A stretch of 64,000 nucleotides of DNA, taken from contig JAKPOP010000003.1 of the NCBI GenBank assembly GCA_029547805.1, positions 372,001 through 436,000 of the forward strand. Reading direction: 5' to 3'. The notes under the pieces are model-generated. The model was not told the origin of the DNA and made no database searches. It saw nothing but the letters and a program-made list of their open reading frames with translations. Position 1 is the stretch's first letter; each line of letters begins with the position of its first letter. Positions 6,653 through 50,162 of the stretch are shown here, one piece after another. This DNA is from Deltaproteobacteria bacterium. GTDB taxonomy: Bacteria; Myxococcota_A; UBA9042; DTJE01. A program made the translations under genes and the position numbers.

Positions 6653-6699
6653 TCCTCAAGCGACGCGAATGGAGGACACCGTCCGGCAGCCCCGACGGT

Positions 6700-27066: not shown

Positions 27067-27174
27067 TCACCCCTTGACACACATCACCGCGAGGGTGAAC
27101 GCCTTCCGGCGAAGGGGCATCTGGGGATATCGCTGGATATCCGCCAGCATCCTGAGGGCGTCCACTGCCGTCAT
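27067..27174 (-). pseudogene. 5' remnant of the sigma-like gene (copy A)
   Basis: Reads MTAVDALRMLADIQRYPQMP then LRRKAFT, matching the N-terminus of the gene at 37911-39047 (one Met/Ile and one Arg/Trp change), then diverges and stops after 35 codons. The homologous block continues through the divergent promoter region into the cas2 remnant. The rest of the gene is absent from copy A. Confidence 0.8.
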
Positions 27175-27410
27175 GGGTCCCTTTTCTTCCAAGAGAAGTC
27201 AATCCTCACGGAAAAACGTGTTTGTCCCAACCAGCCGCCCTCGTCAACCGCATCCTTCCCATGAGTGATGCTCCAGGAACAGGCCCGGTACAGTCCTTTG
27301 AAGGGATGGGATCGCAGGAGGTGGCCATGCTGGTGCTGGTGACCGACGACATCACGGACCCCCAGCGACTGCGGCGAGTAGCCAAGGTCTTGGAGGGCTT
27401 CGGCCGCCGG
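27095..27410. repeat. Duplicated divergent sigma-like/cas2 region, copy A
   Basis: Nearly identical to 38947-39281. It covers the start of the sigma-like gene, the intergenic region and the first 28 codons of cas2. Copy B has a 21-bp insertion repeating the ATGACGGC start context. Confidence 0.85.
27327..27410 (+). pseudogene. cas2: Truncated cas2 (copy A)
   Basis: MLVLVTDDITDPQRLRRVAK followed by VLEGFGRR matches residues 1-28 of the intact cas2 at 39198, with Tyr7 of the TYDI signature changed to Asp. Homology ends abruptly at 27410 and the frame runs on into unrelated sequence, so no functional Cas2 can be made here. The ribosome binding site CAGGAGG is retained. Confidence 0.88.
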
Positions 27411-27445: not shown

Positions 27446-29491
27446 ATGGAATGGCAGGATGCCCTTGGGGCCGGGTCCGAAGTGGGCACCGATGCGCTGG
27501 TCCGGCTGGTGGCGGAGGGCCGACTGGAGGAGGCCCGGGCCCTGGTGCGATCCCGTGCCGACGGCACCTCCGAGGCCCGGCAGCACCAGGCCCTGGCCGA
27601 GGCGGCCGAGGCGGCCGGCAACGTCGCCCTGGCCATCACCGAGTACAACCTCTGTCTGCGTGAGGACCGGAACCAGCCACCGGTGCTGCTCCGACTGGCT
27701 CGGTTGCGGGCCGACATGGGGGACCTGGACCGGGCCATGCGGGCCTACCGCAAGTACCTGGAAGAGAGACCTGAGGACATGGCCGTGCGTCAGGAAGCGG
27801 CCGAGTGCGTCAGCGAGATGGGCCGACCGGACCTGGCCGTCGGTTTCCTGGTCCACGATGCCACCGGAGCGGCCTGCGAGGTCCCGAAGGCCTCCGCCAG
27901 CGTTGCCATCGGCGAGGTCCGTTCCCGGGCAGCCAGGCCTCCGGCAACCGATGACGACCCGTCCTTCCTGCCATCGGACAGCGACTGCGTGACCTTTGCC
28001 ACGATCTTCGCCGGGCGGGAGGGTGTCCATGCCCGACAATGGGCCAGCGCCACCGGACGCACCGGCTACAGCCCCGTTCGGGAGCCCTTCACCGCGGAGG
28101 TCGCCCGCCAGCACCTGCTGGGGACCTACACCGTCGGCATCTACCCGGTGCGCATGGACCAGACGGTCCTCTTCGCCGCGCTGGACTTCGACGTCAGCGC
28201 CGCTGGCAGGACTTCGCCCGACCCAGGGCGGGCCTTCGCCGATCGCATGCGCCGGGCCCATGAAGCGGCCCTTCGGGCGGTGGACGCGGCGGCATCGCTG
28301 GGCCTGTCGGTGCTGCTGGAGGACTCCGGTCACAAGGGGCGACATGTGTGGCTGCTGTTCGCCCAGCCGGTTCCTGCAGCCGCCGCTCGCCGGCTCATGG
28401 CCATCCTGATCGAGACCGCCGCCGTCCACGACCGGGAGGTGTCCATCGAGGCCTTCCCCAAGCAGTCCCGAGTCGCCCCGGGAGGGCTCGGCAACCTGAT
28501 CAAACTCCCCCTGGGGATTCACCGCCTGACCGGCCGGCGAGGCCTGTTGCTGGACCCTGCCACCGGCTTGCCCTTGACGCATCCCTTCGAGGCCCTGGAG
28601 GCCTGCCCCCGCATTCCCCGCAGCCGAGTCCAGCAGATCCTGGAGGCCCAGGATGACGGGGGCATGCCGGCCGGACCGCCGCCGACCCTTCGGGTCCTGG
28701 CCGGAGGCGATGAGGAATTTTCGGCGAAGGGTTGTGAGGCGGAGGCGGAAGACCGGGATCTTGCCGAGTCGGTTCCCGCTCCCAGAGTCCATTCCCCCCC
28801 GGACCCGCGCCCACCCCTCCCGGTGGCACCAACCCCGGCACCATTGCCCGAACGGGAGCCCTATGACCCCATGTCGGACGTCGAGGTGCTGGTGATCCTG
28901 GATCGCTGTCCCGTCCTGGCCGAGGTGGTCCGGCGCATCGGCCAGGGCGGCGTGCTGTCCACCGACGAGCGGGTGGTCCTGACCCACACATTCGGGCACC
29001 TGACACGGGGTCCGGAGGCCGTCAACCACTGGTTGTCCCGGGCTCTGAACCTCGACCCCTGTCTGCTGCTGAAGTCCCGCCTGCGAGGCCACCCGGTCAG
29101 TTGCGCGCGGATCCGCGCTCGCCTGCCCCTGGTCACCGCGGCGGTGGACTGCGCATGCACCTTCGACCCGGGTGCGGGCCTCTACCCCACCCCCCTGCTG
29201 CACCTGGGCAGTCTCCGGGCCACGGACCGGTACGGGGCAGACCCGATCCAGATGAGCCGCCTGGACGCCGATCGGATGGTGGCCGACCTGGTCCAGGCCC
29301 GCGCCCAGGCTGCCCGGGCACTTGAACTGGCGCGCCAGATCGAGGCGCACCTGAAGGCCATCCTGGAGGCGCAGCAGGTGGACCGTCTCCAGGTCACCCG
29401 GGGGACGGTGCGGCTGGTGGCCGATGGCCTGGTGCTGGACCTGTCCGATTCTCTTTCACCGGAGAAAGGCCCATGCCCGTCCTCTACGTGA
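27446..29491 (+). CDS. CRISPR-associated primase-polymerase (CAPP) with helical-repeat N-terminus
   Basis: 681 residues. The N-terminal ~140 residues are TPR-like helices. An archaeo-eukaryotic-type primase-polymerase domain follows (about 180-400) with motif I LDFDV (Asp247-x-Asp249), motif II SGHKGRH (294-300) and the IKLPLG block near 352-357. A C-terminal domain has four spaced cysteines (Cys488, 553, 569, 571) with HPVSC and YPTPLLH, suggesting an Fe-S module like that of primase large subunits. CAPP proteins are known to be operonic with cas1 and cas2 in type III systems and to synthesise DNA during adaptation. The gene overlaps cas1 by 19 nt. Confidence 0.88.
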   Translation: MEWQDALGAGSEVGTDALVRLVAEGRLEEARALVRSRADGTSEARQHQALAEAAEAAGNVALAITEYNLCLREDRNQPPVLLRLARLRADMGDLDRAMRAYRKYLEERPEDMAVRQEAAECVSEMGRPDLAVGFLVHDATGAACEVPKASASVAIGEVRSRAARPPATDDDPSFLPSDSDCVTFATIFAGREGVHARQWASATGRTGYSPVREPFTAEVARQHLLGTYTVGIYPVRMDQTVLFAALDFDVSAAGRTSPDPGRAFADRMRRAHEAALRAVDAAASLGLSVLLEDSGHKGRHVWLLFAQPVPAAAARRLMAILIETAAVHDREVSIEAFPKQSRVAPGGLGNLIKLPLGIHRLTGRRGLLLDPATGLPLTHPFEALEACPRIPRSRVQQILEAQDDGGMPAGPPPTLRVLAGGDEEFSAKGCEAEAEDRDLAESVPAPRVHSPPDPRPPLPVAPTPAPLPEREPYDPMSDVEVLVILDRCPVLAEVVRRIGQGGVLSTDERVVLTHTFGHLTRGPEAVNHWLSRALNLDPCLLLKSRLRGHPVSCARIRARLPLVTAAVDCACTFDPGAGLYPTPLLHLGSLRATDRYGADPIQMSRLDADRMVADLVQARAQAARALELARQIEAHLKAILEAQQVDRLQVTRGTVRLVADGLVLDLSDSLSPEKGPCPSST

Positions 29492-30585
29492 CCGAGCAGG
29501 GAGCCGAGGTGGGCGTGCGGGGGCCCCGGCTGGTGGTTCGCAAGGGGCGGACGGTCCTGGGGGATGTCCGACTGGAGGACTGCCCCCAGGTGGTGCTGAT
29601 GGGCAACGTCCAGGTATCCACCCAGGCCGTCCGGGCGATGCTGCTGGCCGGCGTCGAGGTCCTCTATCTGACCCTGGGGGGACGGTTCCTGGGCCGCCTC
29701 TCCGGCGGCCTGTCCGGCCACATTGCCCTGCGGCAGCGCCAGTTCCAGCAACTCGGGGACGCCGCGTTTGCCCGCGACCTGGCCTCGGTCGTGGTGGACG
29801 GCAAGATCCACAATCAACAGACCCTGTTGCGACGCCATCAGAAGGACATCCAGGACGAGCGGTTGGCCGCGGCCCTGACCCGCATGAGGGCCGCACGGGC
29901 GGCCCTGGAGGGTGCCGGGACGCTCGACCAGGTTCGGGGACTGGAGGGGATCGCGTCCCGAGAGTTCTTTGGGGCCTTCGGGCGACTGATCCGGGCCGAG
30001 GGCATCGAGTTCAGCCGGCGACTGCGCAGGCCGCCTCCCGACCCCGTCAACCTGTTGCTGTCGTTCGGCTACACCCTGCTGGCCGGGTCGATTCACGGCA
30101 TGGTCGAGCAGGCCGGCATGGACCCCTACCTCGGGGCTCTGCACGCCGCCGAGCGCGGCCGCCCGTCCCTGGTCCTGGACCTCATGGAGGAATTCCGACC
30201 GGTGCTGGTCGATGCCACCGTCCTGCGGGTGCTGAACACCCGGGCGATGAGTCGGAGGGACTTCATCTGGCTGGCCGAGGGAGAGGAGACCGAGGTAGAG
30301 GACGAGTGGGAGCGGGAGGAATGGGAGGCGCGGCAGGCGGGGGAGGACCTATTGGGCTCCGACGAGGATCCGGAACCTCCCGCCGGGCGGCGGCGCCTCC
30401 TGCTGACCCCCATGGGCAGTCGGAAGTGGGTGACCGCCTACGAGCGTCGATTGGCCGAGACGGTCGAGTATCCTCGGGCCGGTTGTCGGCTGACCTATCG
30501 CCAGGTCCTGCGGGAGCAGGTATACTGCCTGGCGAGGCATTTCCTGGGCCAGGAGCGGTACCAGTGCTTCCGTTACTCCTGGTGA
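29473..30585 (+). CDS. cas1: Cas1, type III-associated, with acidic insertion
   Basis: 370 residues. Spacer integrase. The catalytic Glu is in GLEGIASREFFGAFG (about 157-171), the His in ALHAAERGRPSLVLDLMEEF (about 219-238) with the following Glu. A highly acidic loop (about 272-310, GEETEVEDEWEREEWEARQ onward) is inserted before the C-terminal RKWVTAYERRL block and makes the protein about 35 residues longer than usual. The start at 29473 has GGAGAAAGG upstream and lies within the end of CAPP, so the two are translationally coupled. It is the only intact Cas1 for the 37-bp-repeat arrays. Confidence 0.95.
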   Translation: MPVLYVTEQGAEVGVRGPRLVVRKGRTVLGDVRLEDCPQVVLMGNVQVSTQAVRAMLLAGVEVLYLTLGGRFLGRLSGGLSGHIALRQRQFQQLGDAAFARDLASVVVDGKIHNQQTLLRRHQKDIQDERLAAALTRMRAARAALEGAGTLDQVRGLEGIASREFFGAFGRLIRAEGIEFSRRLRRPPPDPVNLLLSFGYTLLAGSIHGMVEQAGMDPYLGALHAAERGRPSLVLDLMEEFRPVLVDATVLRVLNTRAMSRRDFIWLAEGEETEVEDEWEREEWEARQAGEDLLGSDEDPEPPAGRRRLLLTPMGSRKWVTAYERRLAETVEYPRAGCRLTYRQVLREQVYCLARHFLGQERYQCFRYSW

Positions 30586-30850
30586 CTGGGGGGTCTTTGA
30601 CAACTGGATCGGTGACATCATGAACGAGCCGAAAAACCTCGCACCTCCCCAGTACCCCCCCGATCGGCGCCAACCCCTGGAAATTCCTACCAGTGGCCCG
30701 AAGGGGTCCGCGGTTTCCGATTACTCTGCAATTTCCGTGACTTGCGCCATTCCGGTCGGTCGTTGGTTGTCATGGGGGGGAGGGGGGTGGGGGGGTCCGT
30801 GGAAACGTGCTATGCTCCCCCTGTTGGGAAGCGGGGCCCCGATGGGTAGG
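30586..30850 (+). promoter_or_regulatory. Leader of array 2 with G-tract and extended -10
   Basis: 265 bp, nearly identical to the array 3 leader. It contains a run of G7-A-G6-T-G7 (30774-30795), able to form a G-quadruplex, followed by TGCTATGCT (30808-30816), an extended -10 placing transcription start about 25-30 bp before the first repeat at 30851. No usual -35 is present at 17 bp; the G-tract occupies that place. Confidence 0.7.
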
Positions 30851-32110
30851 GTCCGAAGAACCACCCCGATGAAGAGGGGATTGAGACATGACCTTTTCCT
30901 CCACCGAGGTGGAAGACTCGGTGTCCGAAGAACCACCCCGATGAAGAGGGGATTGAGACCAGGACTCGTTCATGATCACCTCGCCGGCGTCCGGGATCGT
31001 CCGAAGAACCACCCCGATGAAGAGGGGATTGAGACGTCTCGATTCCTAAAACGACGTTGTACATGCTCGGTGTCCGAAGAACCACCCCGATGAAGAGGGG
31101 ATTGAGACTGTGCACCATGCTCGTTAGCCCAGTGACGTCGGGCCGTCCGAAGAACCACCCCGATGAAGAGGGGATTGAGACGCTATCGCGAGGAGGATTT
31201 TCTGCGAAGCGGCCATGTGTCCGAAGAACCACCCCGATGAAGAGGGGATTGAGACGTAAGACCTCCAGTGGCGGCGGGGCAAGGCCCCAGGTCCGAAGAA
31301 CCACCCCGATGAAGAGGGGATTGAGACCCCCCAGGCCCGGAGATGCGCATCCCGGAGATTGCCGTCCGAAGAACCACCCCGATGAAGAGGGGATTGAGAC
31401 GGCACTTTGTCCTGCTCTTCCATCAGGGCTACGACGGTCCGAAGAACCACCCCGATGAAGAGGGGATTGAGACAGATCCAGGGTGCCTCCCCTGCTGTCA
31501 GTCAGGGGAGTCCGAAGAACCACCCCGATGAAGAGGGGATTGAGACTCCACAGAATACTCCCCCCCGACATCCACACGGATGTGTCCGAAGAACCACCCC
31601 GATGAAGAGGGGATTGAGACCATGGCAGCGGAGGTATCGGCGGTGCAGAAACACTGGTCCGAAGAACCACCCCGATGAAGAGGGGATTGAGACACTGGAG
31701 GTGGAGCATGTACTCTACGTCGCAGATGTGTCCGAAGAACCACCCCGATGAAGAGGGGATTGAGACTCCTCGGCGGCCTCACATGATACACATTCGTCCT
31801 TGTCCGAAGAACCACCCCGATGAAGAGGGGATTGAGACTGATCGCACCGACGACGGCCTCATAGCTGGACGCAGTCCGAAGAACCACCCCGATGAAGAGG
31901 GGATTGAGACCCTCCACCCGCAGCTGAGCGCAATCCCGACACGGGAGTCCGAAGAACCACCCCGATGAAGAGGGGATTGAGACAAGGAAGATTACGGCAG
32001 AAATCATAGCCAGAGAGAAGTCCGAAGAACCACCCCGATGAAGAGGGGATTGAGACAAGAAGGTCTTCGCGAACTCGTACGGCTGGTCCGGGTGTCCGAA
32101 GAACCACCCC
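30851..32110 (+). CRISPR. CRISPR array 2 (type III-type repeat), 17 repeats plus a truncated terminal repeat
   Basis: 37-bp repeat starting GTCCGAAGAACC and ending GGGGATTGAGAC, with CCCC/GGGG forming a short stem; 17 spacers of 35-39 bp. The final repeat (32094-32110) keeps only its first 17 bases, after which sequence runs into the RT promoter, so orientation is +, with the leader at 30586-30850. Repeats are identical to array 3. Spacer 31547-31583 is identical to one in array 3. Cas6 at 44167 is the likely processing enzyme. Confidence 0.98.
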
Positions 32111-32137
32111 ACCCCACACCCCCCAACCCAGCACCCA

Positions 32138-32146
32138 TGCTATCCT
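32138..32146 (+). promoter_or_regulatory. Extended -10 promoter of the RT-CAPP gene
   Basis: TGCTATCCT, 28 bp after the truncated terminal repeat and 29 bp before the GTG at 32176. It overlaps the alternative ATG at 32137, which argues that the real translation start is the downstream GTG. Confidence 0.45.
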
Positions 32147-32175
32147 CGGCCCATCTCAATCTGGCTGGAGGCAGC

Positions 32176-35048: not shown

Positions 35049-36848
35049 TCAGTAGGGGTAAAAACGCCAGACCATGTCTTCAAACGGGCGTCCCATCGCC
35101 TTGGCAAACGCCTCCAGGTTTCGCATGAGGCCCGGCGTAACTGCCCGTAATGCCTGGAGTTGCACCCTCACACCTCCTCTGTCTCCCTGCTCGATGGCGA
35201 GCCACAGGCCCAACAGAGCCCGATTGCAGGTCACGGACCCGTCCTGATCGTGCAGGCTTCCGGTCAGCCCATCGAACCGCTTCAACCCTTCCTCCGCCTC
35301 CCGCTTCCGTCCCGACTTCCACAGCCATGTCACGCGCCATCGCAAGGCCGACCATCCAATATGCGCAGGGACCCCACTCTCGGGGTCAAGGCCTTCCAGT
35401 AACTGGAAAGCCTCGTCATCCAAATCGCCCAGCAGCACCTTTCCGCTGGCGTAGGCCAGTGCCACGAAAGGGTTCTCCCGGATCAGGTCCCTGATGACTT
35501 GCTGCTCCAGGGTCCTGCGAAATCTGTCGGCACGTTTCCATTCACGGCGGTCTTCCAGGGCAGCCGCCAGATGGTACCAGAGGCACAGCGGATGCGCCGA
35601 CTGGTCGTCCAGGAACCGGCTTGTCCAGCCCGTTGCGGCCTCCCGAGCCAACGCGATCGCTTCCACGGGATCGCCTGCCACCGCTTCATACCGCGCCAGG
35701 GCGCCCAGTACCCGGAGGTGATCCGGATGGGCCTCGCGACCACGGACCAGGCAACGCCTGGTGACCCGCAAGACCTCGGCCCGATCGGCACAGCCCGTAT
35801 CAGCCGCCTGCTGGACCCAGTGGGCGATGTAGGCCAGCCTGACGGTGACGGGCACGGATCGAAGCATGTCCCCTCGGGGCACAGAGAGGAGGACATCCTC
35901 CCTGCCCAGATGACGAGACGCAATGGCCTGGGCGCACTGGAGTTTCCATCGCTGGGTCGCGGAGATCGAAGTCCAGACCTCCAGTGCCCGGCCGGCCATG
36001 TTCCTGACAGGTTCCCATGTCGAAAGGCCAAGGCTATCGTGCATCGCCAATCGAAACAGCCCATCCACGATGGCGCGACGTTCCCCAGGGCTGTTAAACC
36101 TGTTCTCGACCAGCCTCCAGATATCACTGCCAAAGACCAGGGCCAGGGCCTGGTCGAATCGATCCACCGGGATGACCTCCATCGACCCTTTCGATGCTTC
36201 CCGTGCCTCTTGGGCGTTGTCCGGAGCCACCAGAATGCGGCGCACCCTGGGTGCCATCTCCCGCAATGCGCGGACCTTGCGCCCAATCGCATCCACCGGC
36301 AGGACCTCCCCCATGGCATTCACCGCGGCGGAGGCTGCCAGGTCATCCGGCACACACACCCCCAACAGGTCGGATGTCAGGGCCAGTCCGAAGGACAGCC
36401 CGAATGAGCGCCCATCCAGCGCCACAGGGAAAGATGGACTCTCCGTTGCTCCCCCATCATGACGGGCCTCTATCTCCAAGGCCTGTCGATGCAGACTTCG
36501 ACGGTGGGACAGCGAGGTCCAGATGACCGGCAAGTGCCGTGGCAACGCTGCGAGGACATCCTTCCAGGCCTCCTGGGCCTGCTCGATGAAATGGCGCCCC
36601 TCATTGCCAAAAGGGTTCCGATCATCGACAGAGAAGACCCAAAGGGAGACGTCGCCCCTCCCAACCGCGATCAAGGCAACCAGGCCCGGTCGCTGGGGTG
36701 GGCCGTCCAGGCCGGATATCTGGCGGGCTCGATCCATCGCCTGAACATCCTCGGATCGAGGCCATGACCAGGGCGAACTCCGCAGGGCCAGCCGGGCCCT
36801 TTCCAGGTCATCAGGTTCCAGTTCGTCGTGCGTGAACCACCGTCGCAT
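35049..36848 (-). CDS. Lon-like (S16-type) protease domain with C-terminal helical repeats
   Basis: 599 residues. About 140-240 matches the proteolytic fold of Lon: ALDGRSFGLSFGLAL resembles the Lon catalytic block DGPSAG, placing the nucleophile at Ser148, and GEVLPVDAIGRKVRAL matches the GRVLPVGGLKEKLLAA block, giving catalytic Lys191; ILVAPDN follows as in Lon. No AAA+ domain is present. Residues about 300-599 are TPR-like helices, plausibly a sensor or substrate-binding part. The start at 36848 overlaps the upstream stop by ATGA; a longer start at 36893 is unsupported. It forms an operon with the next two genes on -. No SAVED or CARF domain is evident. Confidence 0.75.
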   Translation of the reverse strand: MRRWFTHDELEPDDLERARLALRSSPWSWPRSEDVQAMDRARQISGLDGPPQRPGLVALIAVGRGDVSLWVFSVDDRNPFGNEGRHFIEQAQEAWKDVLAALPRHLPVIWTSLSHRRSLHRQALEIEARHDGGATESPSFPVALDGRSFGLSFGLALTSDLLGVCVPDDLAASAAVNAMGEVLPVDAIGRKVRALREMAPRVRRILVAPDNAQEAREASKGSMEVIPVDRFDQALALVFGSDIWRLVENRFNSPGERRAIVDGLFRLAMHDSLGLSTWEPVRNMAGRALEVWTSISATQRWKLQCAQAIASRHLGREDVLLSVPRGDMLRSVPVTVRLAYIAHWVQQAADTGCADRAEVLRVTRRCLVRGREAHPDHLRVLGALARYEAVAGDPVEAIALAREAATGWTSRFLDDQSAHPLCLWYHLAAALEDRREWKRADRFRRTLEQQVIRDLIRENPFVALAYASGKVLLGDLDDEAFQLLEGLDPESGVPAHIGWSALRWRVTWLWKSGRKREAEEGLKRFDGLTGSLHDQDGSVTCNRALLGLWLAIEQGDRGGVRVQLQALRAVTPGLMRNLEAFAKAMGRPFEDMVWRFYPY

Positions 36849-37897
36849 CAGAACTCCCAGACGTCTCCGACATGGGAATCCCGGGCCCACCATGCACCGG
36901 GGTCCAGACTGGCCACCTCCCGAAGGCGTGTGACCTCGGTTGTGATTCGGCGCGGCAGACCAACCCGGAAGTTGTCCCCCTGCTCGTCCAGCGATCGCAG
37001 TTCCGCATCGAGTCGTGGACTCCCGCCGCGCAAATCGACCAGAACCCGAAGGGCCTCCAGGTCATCCCGTGACTCGCACCAGGCGATCCAGCGACGAATC
37101 CAGGCCGGTTCCTCAGGGTCCAGTGTCTCTTCCACTTCGTGGAGCAGGTCCCGGAGGCGTCGCACTTCCTCCAGCGCCAGCGACTCAATGCGCCGCACCT
37201 CCTCCATCGACTGGCTCTGAATCCAGTCATCGATGAAATCACTGAGAACCGTGGCATCTTGGGCCATGGCCCGCTCGATGGCGATCCGCACCTCGTCTGC
37301 AGTCGTGCACAGGCAACGGAATCGTCTGAACACCGCAAGGGCCATGACCTGTGACAGCGCATCCATGCCATCCAGGTGACGGAGGACGGCTGAACGCAAC
37401 CACTCTGGGGACTTTTCGTCCAGGCGCGCCCTCAGGACCTCCAGCACCTGCTCGAAGCGGTCCTGCCGATCGCCCGCTTCCGTTGCCAGGCAACGATGAA
37501 AATCCCCACGGGCGTCCCGGAGGATCGCAAGCACCGTTTCTTCATCCAGGCGAATGGAGAACGCCGATTCCGGGGCCAGCGAAGCCTTCAAGAGACCAGA
37601 ACGGTTGACATCAAACCGTACTCCCCCGATGGTCCCCCTCACCTCGAAAGCCCGCATGGTCTCATCGAAGGACAGTCGCACGAGGCCATCTGCAGGGCGA
37701 TATTCCTCCGTCAACCCGCACCGCAACGGCGTGACCACCATCCATGCGTCCACGGGCTGCTGCATCACCATTTTCCCGTGGTGAATCACGTCCGCCGTGG
37801 CTCGCACCGGGTGCCAACGCAAGGGCGCCCCTGCCGGCAGGCCCAGCGCATCCCTCTCCCTTGGCTCAAGTCTGATCCCTTCCGTTTCGTCGATCAT
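36848..37897 (-). CDS. Unknown protein between Lon-like and sigma-like genes
   Basis: 349 residues, not recognised. The N-terminal ~130 residues look beta-rich (WHPVRATADVIHHGKMVMQQ; DAWMVVTPLRCGL), and the C-terminal ~200 are helical and acidic (SMEEVRRIESLALEEVRRLR; LHEVEETLDPEEPAW). No signal peptide or membrane helix. GGGGGAGG precedes the ATG at 37897. It is coupled to the Lon-like gene by ATGA and follows the sigma-like gene by 13 bp, so it could be the protease substrate or an inhibitor of the sigma-like protein; this is inference from position only. Confidence 0.65.
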   Translation of the reverse strand: MIDETEGIRLEPRERDALGLPAGAPLRWHPVRATADVIHHGKMVMQQPVDAWMVVTPLRCGLTEEYRPADGLVRLSFDETMRAFEVRGTIGGVRFDVNRSGLLKASLAPESAFSIRLDEETVLAILRDARGDFHRCLATEAGDRQDRFEQVLEVLRARLDEKSPEWLRSAVLRHLDGMDALSQVMALAVFRRFRCLCTTADEVRIAIERAMAQDATVLSDFIDDWIQSQSMEEVRRIESLALEEVRRLRDLLHEVEETLDPEEPAWIRRWIAWCESRDDLEALRVLVDLRGGSPRLDAELRSLDEQGDNFRVGLPRRITTEVTRLREVASLDPGAWWARDSHVGDVWEF

Positions 37898-37910
37898 CGT
37901 GCCTCCCCCA

Positions 37911-39047
37911 CTAGGAAACGGAGGTCTTCGCCGGATCTGAGCGCTCACCATCGATCCGGGGTGACCGCTGATAGACGCGAAGGTCCTCGATCCACTTCCG
38001 AGCGGTCAGCAGCCCCTTGAGCGTGGGACCTCCTGGCCGGGGACCCGCCTGCCTCACAGCGGCCTCAAGTTGCTTCCGGGATTCCTCGAGCCTTTTCAGG
38101 AAATCGCAGACCCGGCGGTACAGACGATTTCTCATCTTCGTGAAATCCTGGTCCTCCCGTGTCCTTCCTTCGTGAGCAAGTTCCTCTTCTGCCCGCTTCG
38201 TCACGGTGGTCCGGTCCAGGCGAATGTCCACCAGGAGTCGGTAGGTCGCCACGAACAGTTCCATGCGATCGGGCTGGATGACGTCATCCATGCAATTCCG
38301 CAGCACACAACCATAGGCCTTGACACTCTGGATCAGTGTTTCCCATCCTGCCTGGGGGCCACCGTCTGGCAAGTCCCAGTATTTCGGTTCAGTCAGAAGT
38401 TCCATGAGGGGTGCCACGCGGGGTTCCAGGTGTTCCTGCATTGCCCTGAAGACCTCCCCCCCGAACCCTCCTTGGCCCGCCCTGGCCCATGTCTCCATAT
38501 CGCCAAAGCGTCGCCGTTCCTCTTCCATCAGGGTGACCAACCTCTGTTTCGCTCTTTCCAGGTCCTGTTGTAGCCGCGATAGAACATGTGAGAGGCGTCC
38601 GTCTTGACCCAAGAACTCCTCAGGAATGCCAGCCCCCTTCGCCTGGAGGCCACCATGCGCCTCATCGGCCTGATTGGAACGCGCGTGGACCTCGAGGGCA
38701 CTCTTCGAGTCGTCTGGCAATGGCACATGCCGGAGTGATCTTTGATGGTCTTTGATTCTGTTTCGGATGGCCGTCATCAGGTAGGCGATCGCGTGATCAT
38801 CGGTCACCAGCTCCTGACAAAGATCGAACCCATTGTCAAGCCAGAACATCAGAGAAATATGGAGGCATTCCACCTCCTCAGGAACCTGTGCTGTGATATT
38901 CGCGCCATCGTAGTGGAGGCGCTTGCAGACGGCCTGGAAAAGGACAGTGAACGCCTTCCAGCGAAGAGGCATCTGGGGATATCGCTGGATATCCGCCAGA
39001 ATCCTGAGGGCATCCACTGCCGTCATGGAACCGTTTCCGGCCGTCAT
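37911..39047 (-). CDS. Sigma-factor-like protein (region 2-like N-terminus)
   Basis: 378 residues. Residues about 15-105 resemble sigma70 region 2: WKAFTVLFQAVCKRLH, an acidic helix, then AIAYLMTAIRNRIKDHQRS, very close to the AWLxxxxRNRxxDHLR pattern of ECF-type factors. The middle is a long Arg/Glu coiled coil (QQDLERAKQRLVTLMEEERR). A Lys/Arg-rich helical segment (KMRNRLYRRVCDFLKRLEES) near the end could be a region 4-like DNA-binding part, but this is weak. It is first gene of the operon with the unknown and Lon-like genes and divergent from cas2. Two in-frame ATGs (39047 and 39026) come from a 21-bp insertion; either could be used. Confidence 0.55.
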   Translation of the reverse strand: MTAGNGSMTAVDALRILADIQRYPQMPLRWKAFTVLFQAVCKRLHYDGANITAQVPEEVECLHISLMFWLDNGFDLCQELVTDDHAIAYLMTAIRNRIKDHQRSLRHVPLPDDSKSALEVHARSNQADEAHGGLQAKGAGIPEEFLGQDGRLSHVLSRLQQDLERAKQRLVTLMEEERRRFGDMETWARAGQGGFGGEVFRAMQEHLEPRVAPLMELLTEPKYWDLPDGGPQAGWETLIQSVKAYGCVLRNCMDDVIQPDRMELFVATYRLLVDIRLDRTTVTKRAEEELAHEGRTREDQDFTKMRNRLYRRVCDFLKRLEESRKQLEAAVRQAGPRPGGPTLKGLLTARKWIEDLRVYQRSPRIDGERSDPAKTSVS

Positions 39048-39281
39048 GGGTCCTTTTCCATCCAAGAAAAGTCAATCCTCAAGGGGGCAGAGTCTGTCCC
39101 AACCGGCCGCCCTTGTCAACGCATCCCTTCCATGAGTTATGCTCAATGGACAGGCCCGGTGCAGTCTTTTGGAAGGATGGGATCGCAGGAGGTGGCCATG
39201 CTGGTGCTGGTGACCTACGACATCACGGACCCCCAACGACTGCGGCGGGTGGCCAAGGTCTCGGAGGGCTTCGGCCGCCGG
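38947..39281. repeat. Duplicated divergent sigma-like/cas2 region, copy B
   Basis: The intact counterpart of 27095-27410. The candidate cas2 -10 here is TATGCT (39138-39143), with TTGTCA at 39113-39118 (long 19-bp spacer); in copy A the same -10 reads GATGCT, consistent with decay there. Confidence 0.8.
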
Positions 39282-39473
39282 GTCCAGAAGAGCGTCTTCG
39301 AGTGCGAGATGGACGAAAAGGGGATCGTGCAGTTGCGTCGGGCCCTGGAGGACGTGATGGACCCTCAGGTGGACTCGGTCCGCTTCTATCGCCTCTGTGG
39401 TCGTTGTCGCGGGTCCGTGGAGGTGATGGGGATCGGCACCCTTCCCCGGGAGGATGACCTGGTCGTGTTGTAG
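39198..39473 (+). CDS. cas2: Cas2, type III-associated (the intact copy)
   Basis: 91 residues. MLVLVTYDITDPQRLRRVAK is the Cas2 N-terminal block with the conserved TYD; VQKSVFECEMDEK is the second strand. AGGAGG precedes the ATG. It is the partner expected for the Cas1 at 29473, since the copy next to that cas1 is truncated. Immediately downstream the CAPP and cas1 genes of this copy are reduced to a fusion remnant. Confidence 0.95.
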   Translation: MLVLVTYDITDPQRLRRVAKVSEGFGRRVQKSVFECEMDEKGIVQLRRALEDVMDPQVDSVRFYRLCGRCRGSVEVMGIGTLPREDDLVVL

Positions 39474-39518: not shown

Positions 39519-39850
39519 TGGCCCGGGCCCAGGCTGCCCGGGCTCTTGAACTGGCGCGCCAGATCGAGGCGCACCTGAAGGCCATCCTGGAGGCGCGGCA
39601 GGCGGGGGAGGACCCATTGGGCTCCGACGAGGATCCGGAACCTCCCGCCGGGCGGCGGCGCCTCCTGATGACCCCCATGGGCAGTCGGAAGTGGGTGACG
39701 GCCTACGAGCGTCGGTTGGCCGAGACGGTCGAGTATCCTCGGGCCGGTTGTCGGCTGACCTATCGCCAGGTCCTGCGGGAGCAGGTATACTGCCTCGCGA
39801 GGCATTTCCTGGGCCAGGAGCGGTACCAGTGCTTCCGTTGCTCCTGGTGA
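39519..39850 (+). pseudogene. CAPP'-cas1' deletion remnant (copy B)
   Basis: 39519-39602 matches a segment near the CAPP 3' end (29293-29377), and from about 39590 the sequence matches the cas1 3' end (30324-30585). The join lies in a shared GGAGGCGC(A/G)GCAGG, so about 1 kb was lost by recombination at a 14-bp near-identity. The cas1 part keeps about 87 codons, including RKWVTAYERRL, but lacks every catalytic residue. Confidence 0.88.
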
Positions 39851-40116
39851 CTGGGGGGTCTTTGACAACTGGATCGGTGACATCATGAACGAGCCGAAAA
39901 ACCTCGCACCTCCCCAGCACCCCCCCGATCGGCGCCAACCCCTGGAAATTCCTACCAGTGACCCGAGGGGGTCCGCGGTTTCCGATTACTCTGCAATTTC
40001 CGTGACTTGCGCCACTCCGGCCGGTCGCTGGTTGTCATGGGGGGGAGGGGGGTGGGGGGGTCCGTGGAAACGTGCTATGCTCCCCCTGTTGGGAAGCGGG
40101 GCCCCGATGGGTAGGG
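39851..40116 (+). promoter_or_regulatory. Leader of array 3 with G-tract and extended -10
   Basis: Almost identical to 30586-30850. G7-A-G6-T-G7 at 40039-40060 and TGCTATGCT at 40073-40081, 36 bp before the first repeat. The strict conservation of both elements between copies whose upstream coding parts have decayed suggests that both leaders are still used. Confidence 0.7.
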
Positions 40117-41702
40117 GTCCGAAGAACCACCCCGATGAAGAGGGGATTGAGACCAACCAGCACCACAAAGGGTGCTAGTACCTGCGGCATGTCCGAAGAA
40201 CCACCCCGATGAAGAGGGGATTGAGACTTTTTGACCGTGTCCCTGGCCAACACCACTCCCAGGGGTCCGAAGAACCACCCCGATGAAGAGGGGATTGAGA
40301 CAGTCTCATGGCCCCCTTCTTGGTCGCCGCCCCGCAGATGTCCGAAGAACCACCCCGATGAAGAGGGGATTGAGACTTCCAGGATCCTTTTCGCCTCCAG
40401 GGGCACTCCGTCTCGTCCGAAGAACCACCCCGATGAAGAGGGGATTGAGACTCTCTTTTTGTCATTTGTTCTCCTCCACAATAGCGTAGTCCGAAGAACC
40501 ACCCCGATGAAGAGGGGATTGAGACTTCACCGCCCACAAGACGTAGACCACTCGAAGAACCGGGTCCGAAGAACCACCCCGATGAAGAGGGGATTGAGAC
40601 AGAACCTCCGGCAGCTCCCGCCCTGTATGCTCAATCCGTCCGAAGAACCACCCCGATGAAGAGGGGATTGAGACCTCCTCCTGGAGGCTCCTGACCAACT
40701 CTTCTTTCAAGTCCGAAGAACCACCCCGATGAAGAGGGGATTGAGACAGCATGCAACCAATAATTAATAGCCCACCTCCCGGCGTGTCCGAAGAACCACC
40801 CCGATGAAGAGGGGATTGAGACCAAGAACTTCGGGCAGCTCCTGCCCCGTGTGCTCAAGTCCGAAGAACCACCCCGATGAAGAGGGGATTGAGACCTCAG
40901 AGGGGAAGACGACGTACAGGATATCCCGGACGTCCGAAGAACCACCCCGATGAAGAGGGGATTGAGACAAGCCCTTCCAGTAGTCCGACTCTCCACCTGA
41001 CCGGGTCCGAAGAACCACCCCGATGAAGAGGGGATTGAGACGCCCAACTCGCTCTGCTTCATGACCAAGCCTTTCATGTCCGAAGAACCACCCCGATGAA
41101 GAGGGGATTGAGACTTCACGAACAAATCTAATGATCAAATCAAGATCGCGGTCCGAAGAACCACCCCGATGAAGAGGGGATTGAGACTCCTCATTGTGGG
41201 AGACCTGGAGGGCCTCCCACAATGTCCGAAGAACCACCCCGATGAAGAGGGGATTGAGACATGAGGGACGGGAAGTAGAACACCATCTTGACCTCCTTGG
41301 TCCGAAGAACCACCCCGATGAAGAGGGGATTGAGACTCCACAGAATACTCCCCCCCGACATCCACACGGATGTGTCCGAAGAACCACCCCGATGAAGAGG
41401 GGATTGAGACAGTATAAACGAGCCAGCACCGTTCGTGCTGGCTGTCCGAAGAACCACCCCGATGAAGAGGGGATTGAGACCAGGGGAGGCAGTGATGCAT
41501 GCAGCCAGTAATTAATAGGTCCGAAGAACCACCCCGATGAAGAGGGGATTGAGACGGAACATGAAGTTCACCTCGTCTTGTGGGTTGCTCGTGTCCGAAG
41601 AACCACCCCGATGAAGAGGGGATTGAAGACTCCACGGCGAGGGTGCTCTCTCCGCCGTTGCCGTTGGCCAGAGAGCCCCCCCGAGGAAGAGAGACTCAAG
41701 AG
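40117..41702 (+). CRISPR. CRISPR array 3 (type III-type repeat), 21 repeats plus a degenerate relic
   Basis: Same 37-bp repeat as array 2; 20 spacers of 33-39 bp between 40117 and 41630. The 21st repeat (41593-41630) has a 1-bp insertion near its 3' end. A further spacer-sized gap is followed by a relic (41666-41702) matching the repeat at 25 of 37 positions. Orientation + from the leader and decayed 3' end. Notable spacers: 41337 shared with array 2; 40601/40823 and 40748/41481 homologous pairs; 41188 and 41411 perfect inverted repeats. Confidence 0.98.
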
Positions 41703-41866
41703 GCCGACAAGTGGCTACCGGTCATCATGGCCTTGGCAACTGGAGGCCCCGCACTCCTCCAATGCCGATTTGCAATGAACAGATCCGCTTCCTGTCTGGT
41801 TGTCGTTCCTTGAAACCGTTGTTGGTTCCAACTCCTGTCACACTCCAAAGAAGGAGCACCCCTGCC

Positions 41867-42544
41867 ATGTCCAAGCGCTATCAGATTCTGGAAATCCTGC
41901 AATTTTCATGGTCTCGTCAGAAAGGCGTCATCACAGCCCCGATTGCCGCGGCCGCTGTCCTGCTGGTCGCCGCCTGCTTGTCAGGCAGCATTGACAAAGC
42001 CAATCTGTGGTCGGTCATCGAGCCGGTCCTGAGTCTTGTCACGCTGGCCGTCGCGGTCGTGATCTGGTGGGGAGAACAGCAGGAGGCATGGGAACGCAGC
42101 CTCCCCAAACGACTGACGGTCTCCTTTGTCGTCAACGAGGGCGGCCGCAGTATCGAGGTGATGCGGTGCGAGAAGGCCTACCTCGCCGGCGAGGCCGATA
42201 TTCGAGCCTGGGGACAGCAACTGGGCTCGCAGATGGCCATGGATCAACTCCAGTTCTTTCCGAACTACCAGCAGGAATCCCTGCCCCCGAAGCGTGACGA
42301 GGATGGCCGTTTCTACAAGGACTATCGTCTGACCATCCAATTGCGAGAGTTCCCAACAAATATCGCCCGATCGGGAAGCCCTCCCTACGTTCATTGGACA
42401 GCCCCGGAATTCTCGGACTCGAGGAACCATCCCGCGAAGCCCAAGGCGACGTCCAATGGCGGCCCGGAGACTCCCCTCAACCCGCCATCCACCGCACCCA
42501 GTGAAATCGCCGGTCCCGCTGGTCCCCATCAGATCAGAGAATAA
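41867..42544 (+). CDS. Two-helix membrane protein, candidate type III accessory protein
   Basis: 225 residues, family not recognised. Two hydrophobic helices near the N-terminus (VITAPIAAAAVLLVAACL, about 26-43; SVIEPVLSLVTLAVAVVIWW, about 54-73) are followed by a soluble domain of about 95 residues (KRLTVSFVVNEGGRSIEVMR ... YRLTIQLREFP) and a Pro/Ser-rich tail. AAGGAG precedes the ATG. It lies between array 3 and the convergent CARF-HEPN gene, overlapping it by 16 bp. Small membrane proteins with a soluble domain are common accessories of type III loci, so a membrane effector role is plausible but unproven. Confidence 0.65.
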   Translation: MSKRYQILEILQFSWSRQKGVITAPIAAAAVLLVAACLSGSIDKANLWSVIEPVLSLVTLAVAVVIWWGEQQEAWERSLPKRLTVSFVVNEGGRSIEVMRCEKAYLAGEADIRAWGQQLGSQMAMDQLQFFPNYQQESLPPKRDEDGRFYKDYRLTIQLREFPTNIARSGSPPYVHWTAPEFSDSRNHPAKPKATSNGGPETPLNPPSTAPSEIAGPAGPHQIRE

Positions 42545-44133
42545 CTTCGGAAACGCACAAAACGAAAACGCACCGTCTTCACCCCGCCCTCCCCTGTCAC
42601 CACGTCCCGCCGGGAGGTGGCCGCCAGACACTGGATGCCCCTGCGGTTCAGCCCGTGAACCAAGAACCACGTCAGCGTGAACTCCCCCTGGACCATCGCA
42701 TGGCTGGTCCCTTCCGGGACTTTTTCCAACAGGTCCTCGGCCATCTTCTTCACGTCATCCTCAGATGCGTCGGGAGGCACCTCGGGAAACGCAAAGTCCA
42801 CAATCCGTGGGGCCAACGCCAGTGCTGCCTCCCGCTGGGTGTCCTCCCACCTCTCCGAGGCGTGATTGCTGAGATTCAGAAACACGGGCGTCCCCTGCGC
42901 CTCGGCCCCCCTGGTCTGGCCGACGCTCCGGCGCAGCACATCCACCTCACGGGACACCACCCCAATCAGCGTTCTCGCCGGGGCCGGGGATGGGTTCATG
43001 CCCCCGTGGTCAATGTCGTTGCGCATGTCGGAGATGCGCCGGAAGGTGTCTCGGTCCATCCGTGCACATGCAAACTCGGCCAGGTTCCGTGCCTGCCTGG
43101 AATGGCCAGGACCGGGCGTGGCCGCTTCGGGAGACGCGTAGCGGGTCACCCATGCCTCCCGCACCGTGGTGGCCGCCTCGGAGTACCGTTGCATGTCCAG
43201 GTACAGCCCCGCCAGCGAGGCCAGGGCTTCCTCCCCACGGCGATCCCGCAACGAGGTCACGCCGGTCAGCGGCTCCAGGAAGTCGCGGATCCGCTGCACG
43301 ACATCAGCCAGCGGAGGGAGGTGCCTGCGGACATCCGGCTCGGCGTCCTGCAAGGCGCGCACCAGGGCATCGACCGATGAGGATTCGCCCTGGCGGCCCA
43401 GCAACAGGGCCCCGGTGCGGATGGTGGCCAGGTCCTCCCCGAAGGCCTTCAGGGCCGCGGCCAGCCGATCCAGTTGTGGTTGCGGCCCCTGCATGCCTCC
43501 GCGGGCCCATGCCTTGCGCAAGGCCCGACCGAGCCGTTTGGTCGGGTCCACCACGTCCTCAACCCTCCCGGTCTTCAGGAAGAGGGCCAGCGCCTGGGCC
43601 CAGTCCACCAGTTCGGTGAAGGGCGTCAAGTCCCAGATGGCCGTCGGCTTCTCCGGCACCAGGTTCCCGGCGTAGTACACCCGGACCTCTGGCCGTTCTG
43701 GGTCCACGGCCCGGACAAAGGACAGTGCCGCCGCGGCAAAGAACGGCTGGGACCGGAACCCGTTCGTGATGTCCAGCACCAGGCTCCTCCCCGAAGGCAC
43801 CCGAAAGGCGTCCCGAAGCGTGGCGAACTGGTCCCAGAGTTGTTCCTGAGTTTCCCCGTAGGGAATCGGACGATGGGTGGGCCGAACCCCGGTGATGGCC
43901 GCCACCTCTTGACTCAGGGCACCCCCGTGCATCGCCCAGGCCTCGTCGGTGCTGACGATGCACACCTCCTGCGGCGGCGTCTCCTCCTTCGTCAACATCT
44001 GGCAGACGGCAGCCGTGGCATAGCGGGACATGTACCGGTCCTCGGCACCGTCGCCCCAGGCATAGGTGGTCTGCTGATAGTTGGCCTTCCCCAGAAACGA
44101 CACGAGCCGGATTCCCTCGACCTCCTCTTCCAT
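42529..44133 (-). CDS. CARF-HEPN ribonuclease (TM1812/Csx2-Csx1-like) with extra C-terminal CRISPR-associated domain
   Basis: 534 residues. The CARF domain (1-170) has VSFLGKANYQQTTY and LDITNGFRSQPF, the TM1812-family signatures for cyclic oligoadenylate binding. The HEPN domain (about 300-400) carries RNDIDH, R371-x4-H376, the ribonuclease motif. A third domain (about 416-534) begins FLNLSNHASERW and continues MVQGEFTLTWFLVHGLNRRG; similar small proteins occur alone in type III loci and belong, as far as I can recall, with the Csx15/16/20-type proteins proposed as ring nucleases. It is the last gene of the cmr operon, 33 bp after cas6. Likely activated by Cas10 signalling and possibly self-limiting. 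Confidence 0.82.
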   Translation of the reverse strand: MEEEVEGIRLVSFLGKANYQQTTYAWGDGAEDRYMSRYATAAVCQMLTKEETPPQEVCIVSTDEAWAMHGGALSQEVAAITGVRPTHRPIPYGETQEQLWDQFATLRDAFRVPSGRSLVLDITNGFRSQPFFAAAALSFVRAVDPERPEVRVYYAGNLVPEKPTAIWDLTPFTELVDWAQALALFLKTGRVEDVVDPTKRLGRALRKAWARGGMQGPQPQLDRLAAALKAFGEDLATIRTGALLLGRQGESSSVDALVRALQDAEPDVRRHLPPLADVVQRIRDFLEPLTGVTSLRDRRGEEALASLAGLYLDMQRYSEAATTVREAWVTRYASPEAATPGPGHSRQARNLAEFACARMDRDTFRRISDMRNDIDHGGMNPSPAPARTLIGVVSREVDVLRRSVGQTRGAEAQGTPVFLNLSNHASERWEDTQREAALALAPRIVDFAFPEVPPDASEDDVKKMAEDLLEKVPEGTSHAMVQGEFTLTWFLVHGLNRRGIQCLAATSRRDVVTGEGGVKTVRFRFVRFRSYSLI

Positions 44134-48473: not shown

Positions 48474-50162
48474 TCACCTCGTTTCTTTGGGACAGTGGAG
48501 GTGCAGAAAACGTCCCGCGAGCAGCAGGTCGATGAAGGCTCCCAGTCCCTGGACGCCGCTGCCGTGAACCGCCTTCGCCCAGGCCGACAGGGCCTCCACT
48601 TCCGCCCCCCCTGTCCCCTCGGAGGCCCCTGACCCTTGCTTCCGGGAGAGGATGTATCGGGCCATGTCCCACCTGGCCTCCTCCGGCACATCCAGCAGGC
48701 CCGCGCGCAGATCATAGGCGGCCTTTTCGACCAGGAGCCGGTTGTCATAGAGAGATCGGGCCTTTCCAAGGGCCCAGTCCAACGTGCCGGGGGCATTCGG
48801 ATCGGGGTCGGGAGCCGCAGGACCCAGCACGGTCAGGGCGTCGCCGCTGCGTTTCTGGATCCGCAAGGCCAGGGCGCCCCGGGCGGCCAGGGAGGCAGGG
48901 AGCCGGGCCCTCCAGGCCTTGGCGGCCCGCTCGGCCTCCTGGGCCCATTCCCGAACCCGGTCGAAGGGCTCCAGCATGTGGGCCACCGCGATGCCGGCCG
49001 ACAGGCTGTATCCCTGGACCTTCTGGCCGAAACATGCCGCCAGGGCCGCGGTGGCCCGGGTGGCAGTGGCCATCGGGAAGGCCGCCAGCACGTCATCCCC
49101 GCCGCAATAGATCAACGACCCCAGGTCCTTGTCCGGATCGTTCTGGAACCGTGTGCGGACCTCCCGGGCAAAGTCGGCCATGGCCTTCGAGATCTGCTGG
49201 TGTCCTTCGGGGTCGGAACAGCCCGAGATGGCCGCGCCGATGCCGTCGCCATCGCCCATCACCAGGGCATAGTAGGGGGTGGATCGGAACCCGGACTTGC
49301 TCAAGAGGCGGCGGAGTTCCTGGATCTCCTCGGTCTGCAGGCCCGCATCCCGGCCCTCGACTTCCAGTCGATCCTGGAAGTACCAGGCCGCGTCCACCTG
49401 CGTGACATCGAACAGTTCCTTGGCCTTCGCTTCAAAGGCCTCAAGCCGCGACCGGGCAGCGTCCGAAAGGGCCTCCCGGGCCGCCCGGACCGCCACGTCG
49501 TTGACACTGGCAAAGGATTCCCGGAACTCGCCCAGGCGCTTCACCGCCCCAAGGGCATCCAGCCGCTCCTGTCCCTTCAAGAGCAGGCGCCGTCGGAGGC
49601 GGTCCAGCGCGGCGGGGTTCCCCCGCTGCAGCACGTCCTCCCGTCCCGCATCCTGCCACGACTTGGCCCGGGTCGGCGCACCGGGCGTGCCATCGCGGGA
49701 CGGAAAGTCCCGGGTCCGCTTCCGGCCGTCCAGCAACCGCTCGGCGGCCTGCCGGGCGTCGGCATAGGTCGGCCGGGTGGCCCAGGCGACATAGAACTGG
49801 CACCAGTCCTCCAGCCGCGCCTGGTCCCGAAAGACGGTCAGGTCCAGACAGTCCTGGAATTCCGATTCCACCGCCTGGACACACTGCTCCCAGCGTGCGG
49901 CGGTGGCCTGCCGGGCGGCCTGGGCGGCGGCCCGGGCCTGTGCGGGACCTTCAGGGCAGAGAGCCAGGACCTTGTTGGGACACCCCTCGGCGGTCCCCAC
50001 CGCCGGGAAGATGGTCCGGGCACCGGTCTGGCCGATGGCCTCCGCCGCCGCGGCGGCCAGTTCGGACAAGATGCGGGAACCGGCCTGGAGGTCCGACATC
50101 CGCCGGGCCGCGGCGATGAATGGCTGCACAGGTCCCAGGTGGAGCACCAGCACGGTGGTCAT
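48474..50162 (-). CDS. cas10: Cas10 (Cmr2), HD-less, GGDD cyclase
   Basis: 562 residues. Starts directly at VLHLGPVQPFIAAARRMSDL, the block that follows the HD domain in full-length Cmr2, so the DNase domain is absent. The first palm has MGDGDGIGAAI (about 302-312) and the second has YCGGDDVLAAFP (GGDD about 354-357), so cyclic oligoadenylate synthesis from ATP should be intact. Activated by target RNA binding, it would signal to the CARF-HEPN protein in the same operon. The ATG at 50162 overlaps the cmr1 stop (ATGA). Confidence 0.95.
   Translation of the reverse strand: MTTVLVLHLGPVQPFIAAARRMSDLQAGSRILSELAAAAAEAIGQTGARTIFPAVGTAEGCPNKVLALCPEGPAQARAAAQAARQATAARWEQCVQAVESEFQDCLDLTVFRDQARLEDWCQFYVAWATRPTYADARQAAERLLDGRKRTRDFPSRDGTPGAPTRAKSWQDAGREDVLQRGNPAALDRLRRRLLLKGQERLDALGAVKRLGEFRESFASVNDVAVRAAREALSDAARSRLEAFEAKAKELFDVTQVDAAWYFQDRLEVEGRDAGLQTEEIQELRRLLSKSGFRSTPYYALVMGDGDGIGAAISGCSDPEGHQQISKAMADFAREVRTRFQNDPDKDLGSLIYCGGDDVLAAFPMATATRATAALAACFGQKVQGYSLSAGIAVAHMLEPFDRVREWAQEAERAAKAWRARLPASLAARGALALRIQKRSGDALTVLGPAAPDPDPNAPGTLDWALGKARSLYDNRLLVEKAAYDLRAGLLDVPEEARWDMARYILSRKQGSGASEGTGGAEVEALSAWAKAVHGSGVQGLGAFIDLLLAGRFLHLHCPKETR

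Follow-up and report, generated by a model that had tools for sequence, protein, structure and literature searches.

A Lon-type protease, a protein of a new family and a sigma-like protein in one operon beside CRISPR adaptation genes: a possible protease-gated transcription switch

What do a Lon-like protease gene, an unfamiliar gene and a sigma-like gene do together when they stand in one operon head to head with the adaptation gene cas2? The question is raised by a 64,000-nucleotide stretch of DNA from a Deltaproteobacteria bacterium (assembly GCA_029547805.1, contig JAKPOP010000003.1, positions 372,001 to 436,000), called the window here, in which we name the three minus-strand genes B (sigma-like), C (middle protein) and D (Lon domain). 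A preliminary description, made from the letters alone, had likened them to the CalpL/CalpT/CalpS system. There, the protease CalpL cleaves CalpT, and the sigma factor CalpS is believed to be set free as a consequence (PMC11417357; papers are cited by PMC number and for the accessible part of their text). We consider it moderately probable that the three genes make up a switch of this kind, in which transcription is gated by a protease: C holds B, the Lon protease cuts C, and B is freed. The coupling and orientation first proposed were borne out: all three minus-strand frames are open over their proposed lengths (Table 1), the stop of C overlaps the start of D (TGATG), B and C overlap when the longer start of C (37951) is taken, and cas2 diverges from the operon.

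Gene D matched Lon_C of Pfam with 22.4 bits (cut-off 21.1), and the PDB search returned a Lon homologue at an expectation value (E) of 6e-7 with the single sequence and Lon at E 5e-16 with the profile. Ser148 and Lys191, the residues singled out beforehand as a catalytic dyad, fall on the catalytic Ser and Lys in the alignment with Lon, and neither varies across the 21 sequences aligned (the window protein among them). CalpL, too, carries a Ser-Lys dyad of this type. PDB chain 1rr9, which we take to be a Ser-to-Ala mutant of Lon, has Ala at the position aligned to Ser148. No AAA family was listed by Pfam at E up to 5, so that the AAA+ domain of LonA and LonB was not found, as had been expected. 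Outside the Lon part, no CARF or SAVED match was obtained from Pfam or PADLOC, and the SAVED-Lon match of PADLOC is limited to residues 140-218 within it. The helical repeats claimed for the rest of the protein stood in part: a TPR-like region is present, and the TPR family match is weak (TPR_16, E 0.05, under the cut-off). By profile match and Ser-Lys dyad, gene D has an S16 Lon-type protease domain.

For gene B, the protein of the window matched nothing by itself, no Pfam family included, and Sigma70_r2 (Pfam, E up to 1) was matched by 6 of the 19 members of its family, with a best E of 2e-6. The family profile, compared by hhalign, matched six of the nine sigma factors found in the window's genome. 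Aligned with these sigma factors, the family reached 96.5% with its 14 compact members and 96.1% with all 19, and the profile with the window protein placed first gave E 3e-9 over window residues 44-104, an E-value that, like all those from hhalign, holds for one pair only. Negative controls with the C family gave 0.1% and 0.3%. The motif that had been called similar to sigma region 2 falls inside the matched stretch. In the PDB, the profile found chains of extracytoplasmic function (ECF) sigma factors, the best at E 0.001, among unrelated weak rows. As far as profiles can tell, gene B has a sigma region 2.

The conservation of the operon was surveyed with the Lon-TPR protein of gene D. A first scan of genome contigs with the window's Lon found no relatives. 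One sampling searched 184 relatives and gave 161 matches, mostly ordinary Lon; another covered 377 genomes of the window's phylum and gave 42 matches at E 1e-20 or better, of which four (G049, G069, G215 and G309) were dropped because the match covers the Lon domain only, leaving 38 Lon-positive genomes; a third, one scan of named genomes, gave 11 loci. The final set holds 48 loci from 42 genomes in three phyla, namely Myxococcota/Myxococcales, Acidobacteria/Vicinamibacteria and Planctomycetota, with two genomes of the window's phylum labelled Proteobacteria. It excludes repeats of loci already in the set (L091, L098-L101), a fragment (L018), two loci that were not fetched (G136:C96, G187:C20) and two met later (L119, L126), and it retains two pairs of near-copies (L096/L097 and L089/L090). 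The window and the first 20 loci supplied the sequences for profiles of B, C and a further gene, A. Near Lon-TPR, C was detected in 42 of the 48 loci, B in 37 and both in 36, which upholds the co-occurrence at issue; A was detected in 29, and all three in 26. The trend is kept in the 20 loci outside profile building (C 16, B 13, A 13), where four contigs end less than 2 kilobases (kb) upstream of Lon. The genes B, C and Lon therefore form a conserved operon, often with a DUF3800-like fourth gene A. DUF3800 itself was matched by 1 of 13 members of A (Pfam, E 0.07, under the cut-off), and the acidic residues D65, E66 and D332 (numbering of L030) are invariant in the 13. Gene A found no match in the window's genome, and the window has lost it; in L026, A has a weak match, situated downstream. 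One open frame of L027 contains both C and a stretch that weakly resembles region 2, which is either a fusion or a deletion. Four loci (L006, L086, L087 and L090) have a Lon match with no A, B or C detected, and two of these (L006 and L090) have less than 2 kb upstream. Directly upstream of Lon-TPR in the other two there are very large predicted frames (L086, 2696-7816; L087, 3879-9083), possibly another partner.

The best evidence for a Calp-like circuit is a swap of the sensor. Genome G089 (L123) has, next after A, B and C, a protein matching the CARF-Lon family of PADLOC with E 2e-37. A search for this family matched in 13 of 66 chosen genomes, in four cases over nearly the full length, and one of these (G315, L140) shows the order A (E 2e-46), B (E 3e-20), a C-like protein and CARF-Lon. 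The C-like protein was missed by the HMMER search with the C profile, and its middle matches the C family by profile comparison (88%, E 3e-6 for one pair). All four CARF-Lons have Ser140 and Lys181, and the Lon parts of the TPR and CARF families match at 84.8% with the alignment of the four. CARF-Lon is a predicted sensor of cyclic oligoadenylate, and in two loci it occupies the protease slot of the cassette. That one cassette accepts either TPR-Lon or CARF-Lon would be difficult to account for if Lon acted on neither B nor C. Together with the dyad, region 2 and the co-occurrence, this replacement supports the analogy with CalpL/CalpT/CalpS. Searches of plasmids with CARF-Lon and of the PDB with a single CARF-Lon gave no match. 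In L123, a Fic-domain protein (5501-7042) comes after the cassette.

The link to type III CRISPR (clustered regularly interspaced short palindromic repeats) systems that had been proposed is real but partial. Cas10 was found in 16 of the 38 Lon-positive genomes and in 44 of the 339 others (Fisher p 4e-5; this and the later enrichments are uncorrected for kinship, genome size and assembly quality). Detected type III or adaptation genes adjoin Lon-TPR in 9 of the 48 loci: those of the window, its sister genome G001 (adaptation genes), G115, G074 (Csx20/Csx1-like), G180 (C96), G266, G251 (Csx1 and a reverse transcriptase), G210 (C24, one Cmr6-like match) and a Planctomycete. Lon is followed on the same strand by type III genes in G180 and G266, where the next start is 36 and 21 bases past the Lon stop (L035 and L074, respectively), and in G115 and a Planctomycete Lon adjoins Cmr/Csx1 genes. 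The locus G187:C20, with a partial Lon match only on a contig with Cas10 and RAMP genes, was not counted as linked; in G222, Cas10 is 50 kb from Lon. On the Lon tree, which was made by a quick method and contains long branches, the nine linked rows need 8 changes, at least 4 of them forced by well supported branches, and they cluster no more than with shuffled labels. Therefore, the CRISPR linkage was gained or lost repeatedly. For 112 near neighbours of Lon-TPR, hand-picked at up to two per side with very large frames and the window excluded, the largest single PADLOC count among the 25 of 150 families listed is CARF-HEPN-Csx20 with 5, followed by other Csx1-type and helicase-type families with 4, and the Cas10 palm matched three. 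The Cas10 proteins of the window, L033, L035, L074 and L092 all keep GGDD, and so signalling by nucleotides is possible.

The pairing with adaptation genes was found to have a history. Three stretches of the window (27095-27410, 29296-29381 and 30324-32056) match 38947-39281, 39520-39605 and 39589-41336, respectively, the first pair with 84% identity and with the frames of the first copy broken. The losses are complementary: copy one consists of PrimPol-cas1 with broken starts of B and cas2, while copy two consists of cas2 with the operon. Contigs C92 and C94 of the sister genome G001 overlap, end to start, by 157 bases within gene A with one mismatch, and read together they give Lon, C, B, A, then divergent cas2, PrimPol and cas1. 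From this order, the head-to-head pairing of the operon with the adaptation operon probably predates the duplication in the window.

If the switch operates as we infer, C would keep the sigma-like B inactive by binding it, a C-terminal sensor would activate the Lon protease so that C is cut, and the freed B would take RNA polymerase to target promoters. The TPR-like sensor in the window would probably be activated by the type III (Cmr) effector complex, its product or a ligand, while the CARF sensor in the sister cassettes would be expected to bind cyclic oligoadenylate. Candidate triggers for TPR include contact with the Cmr complex, a nucleotide, or, in the many unlinked loci, a signal from outside CRISPR. 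The likeliest nearby target would be the divergent cas2-PrimPol-cas1 operon, in which case infection would raise spacer acquisition, and the stretch between B and cas2 may be the site where B regulates its own operon. A wider proposal is more tentative, and we would put its chances at somewhat below even: that one homologous sigma/anti-sigma cassette (A-B-C) takes Lon with different sensors, of which CARF would read cyclic oligoadenylate and TPR, like Craspase, would read the effector complex directly, which would make it a third independent way of controlling transcription by RNA-triggered proteolysis, one that switches on spacer acquisition.

Among known systems, Haliangium ochraceum (Myxococcota) has a type III-linked SAVED-CHAT proteolytic cascade with a sigma factor, which is alike in joining type III to a protease cascade and unlike in its CHAT/caspase proteases. 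CalpL/CalpT/CalpS shares the set of Lon protease, middle protein and sigma factor (PMC11417357); however, CalpL senses cyclic tetra-adenylate (cA4) via SAVED, whereas the window's Lon has TPR-like helices (CARF in the sister loci), and a DUF3800-like extra gene occurs in 29 of the 48 Lon-TPR loci. Craspase/CASP of type III-E shares a TPR-bearing protease, an inhibitor, a sigma factor and the link to adaptation genes. Its Csx29, whose TPR domain senses target RNA, cuts Csx30, the inhibitor of CASP-sigma, and binding motifs of CASP-sigma lie within its own locus, cas1 included (PMC10028731), which parallels the head-to-head arrangement in the window. On the other hand, the protease of the window is Lon and not a CHAT caspase, and separate Cmr2 and RAMP genes stand in place of Cas7-11. 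CARF-Lon fusions share the Lon domain and, in L123 and L140, follow homologues of A, B and C (that of C strong in L123 and recognised by profile comparison in L140), but their sensor is CARF; the single paper retrieved under this name speculates that they are killing proteases and, in its accessible text, names no sigma partner (PMC9704534). Conflict systems built around caspases that include ECF sigma and TPR proteins have been described (PMC8195603), and SAVED-CHAT is mentioned in PMC11229360. Neither a Lon-TPR/sigma/DUF3800 operon nor a sigma partner of CARF-Lon is described in the literature searched, which includes the accessible parts of PMC11229360, PMC11237760, PMC9704534, PMC8195603, PMC10910872 and PMC7159879 and lies outside most subscription papers and all supplementary tables. 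If the switch is real, a family spanning three phyla would join the known designs for setting a sigma factor free by a CRISPR-linked protease, with an exchangeable sensor part and a constant transcription part; infection-induced spacer acquisition would become a testable proposal, and new RNA- or nucleotide-triggered proteases would be on offer. What specialists would least expect is the exchange of sensors between homologous cassettes and the large number of copies with no type III genes detected nearby, which call for a trigger not yet recognised.

A number of observations weigh against the proposed switch. The anti-sigma role is given to C by its position, because C matches nothing known. 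For gene B, region 2 was recovered by profiles, while hhalign aligned nothing of region 4, the AlphaFold2 model is poor (predicted local distance difference test 67.7, predicted template modelling score 0.44), and Foldseek with this model found nothing significant. No C was detected in 6 of the 48 Lon loci and no B in 11. A reverse search with C found 38 of the 377 genomes at E 1e-6; eleven loci were inspected, chosen because no Lon-TPR was seen beside C, and seven of them (L116, L117, L118, L120, L121, L122 and L124) contain a B-C pair in a stretch that yielded no Lon match. The other four comprise two further Lon matches, a C with a piece of A and no B (L125), and one CARF-Lon. In G042 (L141), outside the two cassettes, CARF-Lon stands by RAMP genes, and a protein further along has weak signs of a sigma region 2 (Pfam E 0.002, under the cut-off; hhalign 43%), and in G200 (L139) it stands by a Cmr operon with a neighbour that is sigma-like by eye only; no homologous C was detected in either locus. 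A single CARF-Lon, that of L123, reached 3.2% against the TPR-Lon profile. A comparison of the window's two copies with the sister genome revealed no conserved promoter motif, and 39 of the 48 loci have no detected type III or adaptation genes in their vicinity, a count that includes some short contigs and depends on detection by the window's proteins and two families. The sigma-like neighbour in L139 was also tried as a homologue of B; it found no support in a profile comparison (0.8%) and is not counted.

These 39 loci speak for a switch that senses stress or phage in general and does not depend on type III, with CRISPR genes merely among its targets, which would explain why adaptation genes neighbour the operon in some genomes; we regard this reading as rather unlikely. 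The enrichment of Cas1 (24 of 38 Lon-positive against 71 of 339 other genomes, p 2e-7) is at least as strong as that of Cas10 and holds even among Cas10-negative genomes (8 of 22 against 45 of 295, p 0.017), which indicates a link to CRISPR in general besides that to type III; the placement head to head with cas2-PrimPol-cas1 and the B-C pairs without a detected Lon point the same way. Nevertheless, Cas10 is still enriched among Cas1-positive genomes (16 of 24 Lon-positive against 26 of 71, p 0.017), Lon stands in apparent operons with Cas10 and RAMP genes, and two sister cassettes carry CARF sensors.

Could C be the effector instead, a toxin freed by Lon cleavage, with B only an autoregulator of the operon? 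Its two-part structure would suit this: AlphaFold2 gave a beta-rich, poorly predicted N-terminus and, over residues 144-341, a C-terminal domain of helices modelled with confidence, with a conserved WW motif at its end; the first comparison drawn for a fragment of the corresponding CRISPR-T (CalpT) was with the toxin MazF (PMC9704534). However, B-C pairs persist without a detected Lon in the seven loci above, as expected of a sigma/anti-sigma pair, and Pfam searches with 19 members of the C family found no toxin family and no family matching more than one member, so that this reading is improbable. The profile of C matched no PDB chain under E 0.6 (CalpT itself was not compared), the fold search with the helical domain gave no informative match, and the start Met, W225, R277, D304, W336 and W337 are invariant in 19 of 19 sequences. 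To judge from these comparisons C is a new family, and we propose it as the anti-sigma factor and the Lon substrate. Least probable, with only a slight chance in our estimate, is that B is an adaptor of sigma origin, able to bind RNA polymerase or C and unable to start transcription. The alignment of region 2 only and the further fold comparison (several rows are sigma factors, all under Z 8) could be cited for this, but several of those rows are colinear with B over about residues 9-329, under the significance line, and a conserved C-terminal helix around the nearly invariant R324 looks by eye like the recognition helix of region 4. The C-terminal half of B is possibly a derived region 4.

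Table 1. Features of the operon region and its CRISPR surroundings in the window.
Feature	Coordinates	Strand	Remarks
Gene B, sigma-like, 378 aa	37911..39047	-	open frame; sigma region 2 at about residues 44-104
Gene C, middle protein	36848..37951, likely start 37897	-	open frame
Gene D, Lon S16 domain	35049..36848	-	Lon at about residues 55-245, then TPR-like helices at about 260-599
Ser148 codon (catalytic, gene D)	36405..36407	-	invariant 21/21; aligned to Lon Ser
Lys191 codon (catalytic, gene D)	36276..36278	-	invariant 21/21; aligned to Lon Lys
Divergent intergenic stretch, gene B / cas2; proposed site of autoregulation by B	39048..39197		
cas2	39198..39473	+	head to head with operon; 77% identity to sister-genome cas2
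Decayed copy: B start, divergent promoter, cas2 start	27095..27410		directly upstream of PrimPol-cas1
PrimPol (TPR + AEP primase), adaptation polymerase	27446..29491	+	
cas1	29473..30585	+	PF01867 match (G000:C25, same place); 77% identity to sister genome
CRISPR array 1	30836..32057	+	
Reverse transcriptase fused to AEP-TOTE primase domain	32137-34746	+	beside CRISPR array; 60% identity, sister genome
CRISPR array 2	40102..41700 (end approximate)	+	repeat same as array 1
Csx1 (CARF-HEPN) fused to Csx20	42529..44133	-	
Cmr2/Cas10	48474..50597	-	GGDD intact

From Table 1, two CRISPR arrays with one common repeat flank the operon region, and Cas10/Cmr2 with GGDD, together with RAMP genes, places the system of the window in type III-B. 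The window also contains an operon (22749-26784, plus strand) of a MoxR ATPase, an unknown protein and a weakly DUF2201/vWA-like protein, adjoined by a regulator that is WYL-like by eye. The partnership once suggested between this operon and that of Lon had to be given up: the MoxR and vWA queries of the window produced one weak vWA match (L031, E 9e-5), the only match in the homologous loci searched. Among the loci that hold a B-C pair, L120, L121 and L122 have similar neighbours by eye. The protein encoded at 41711-42544 (plus strand) resembles SLATT weakly (E 0.04) and is 41% identical to a relative in G001. In the first CRISPR array of the window, two consecutive repeat-spacer units (18157-18298) are 99% identical.

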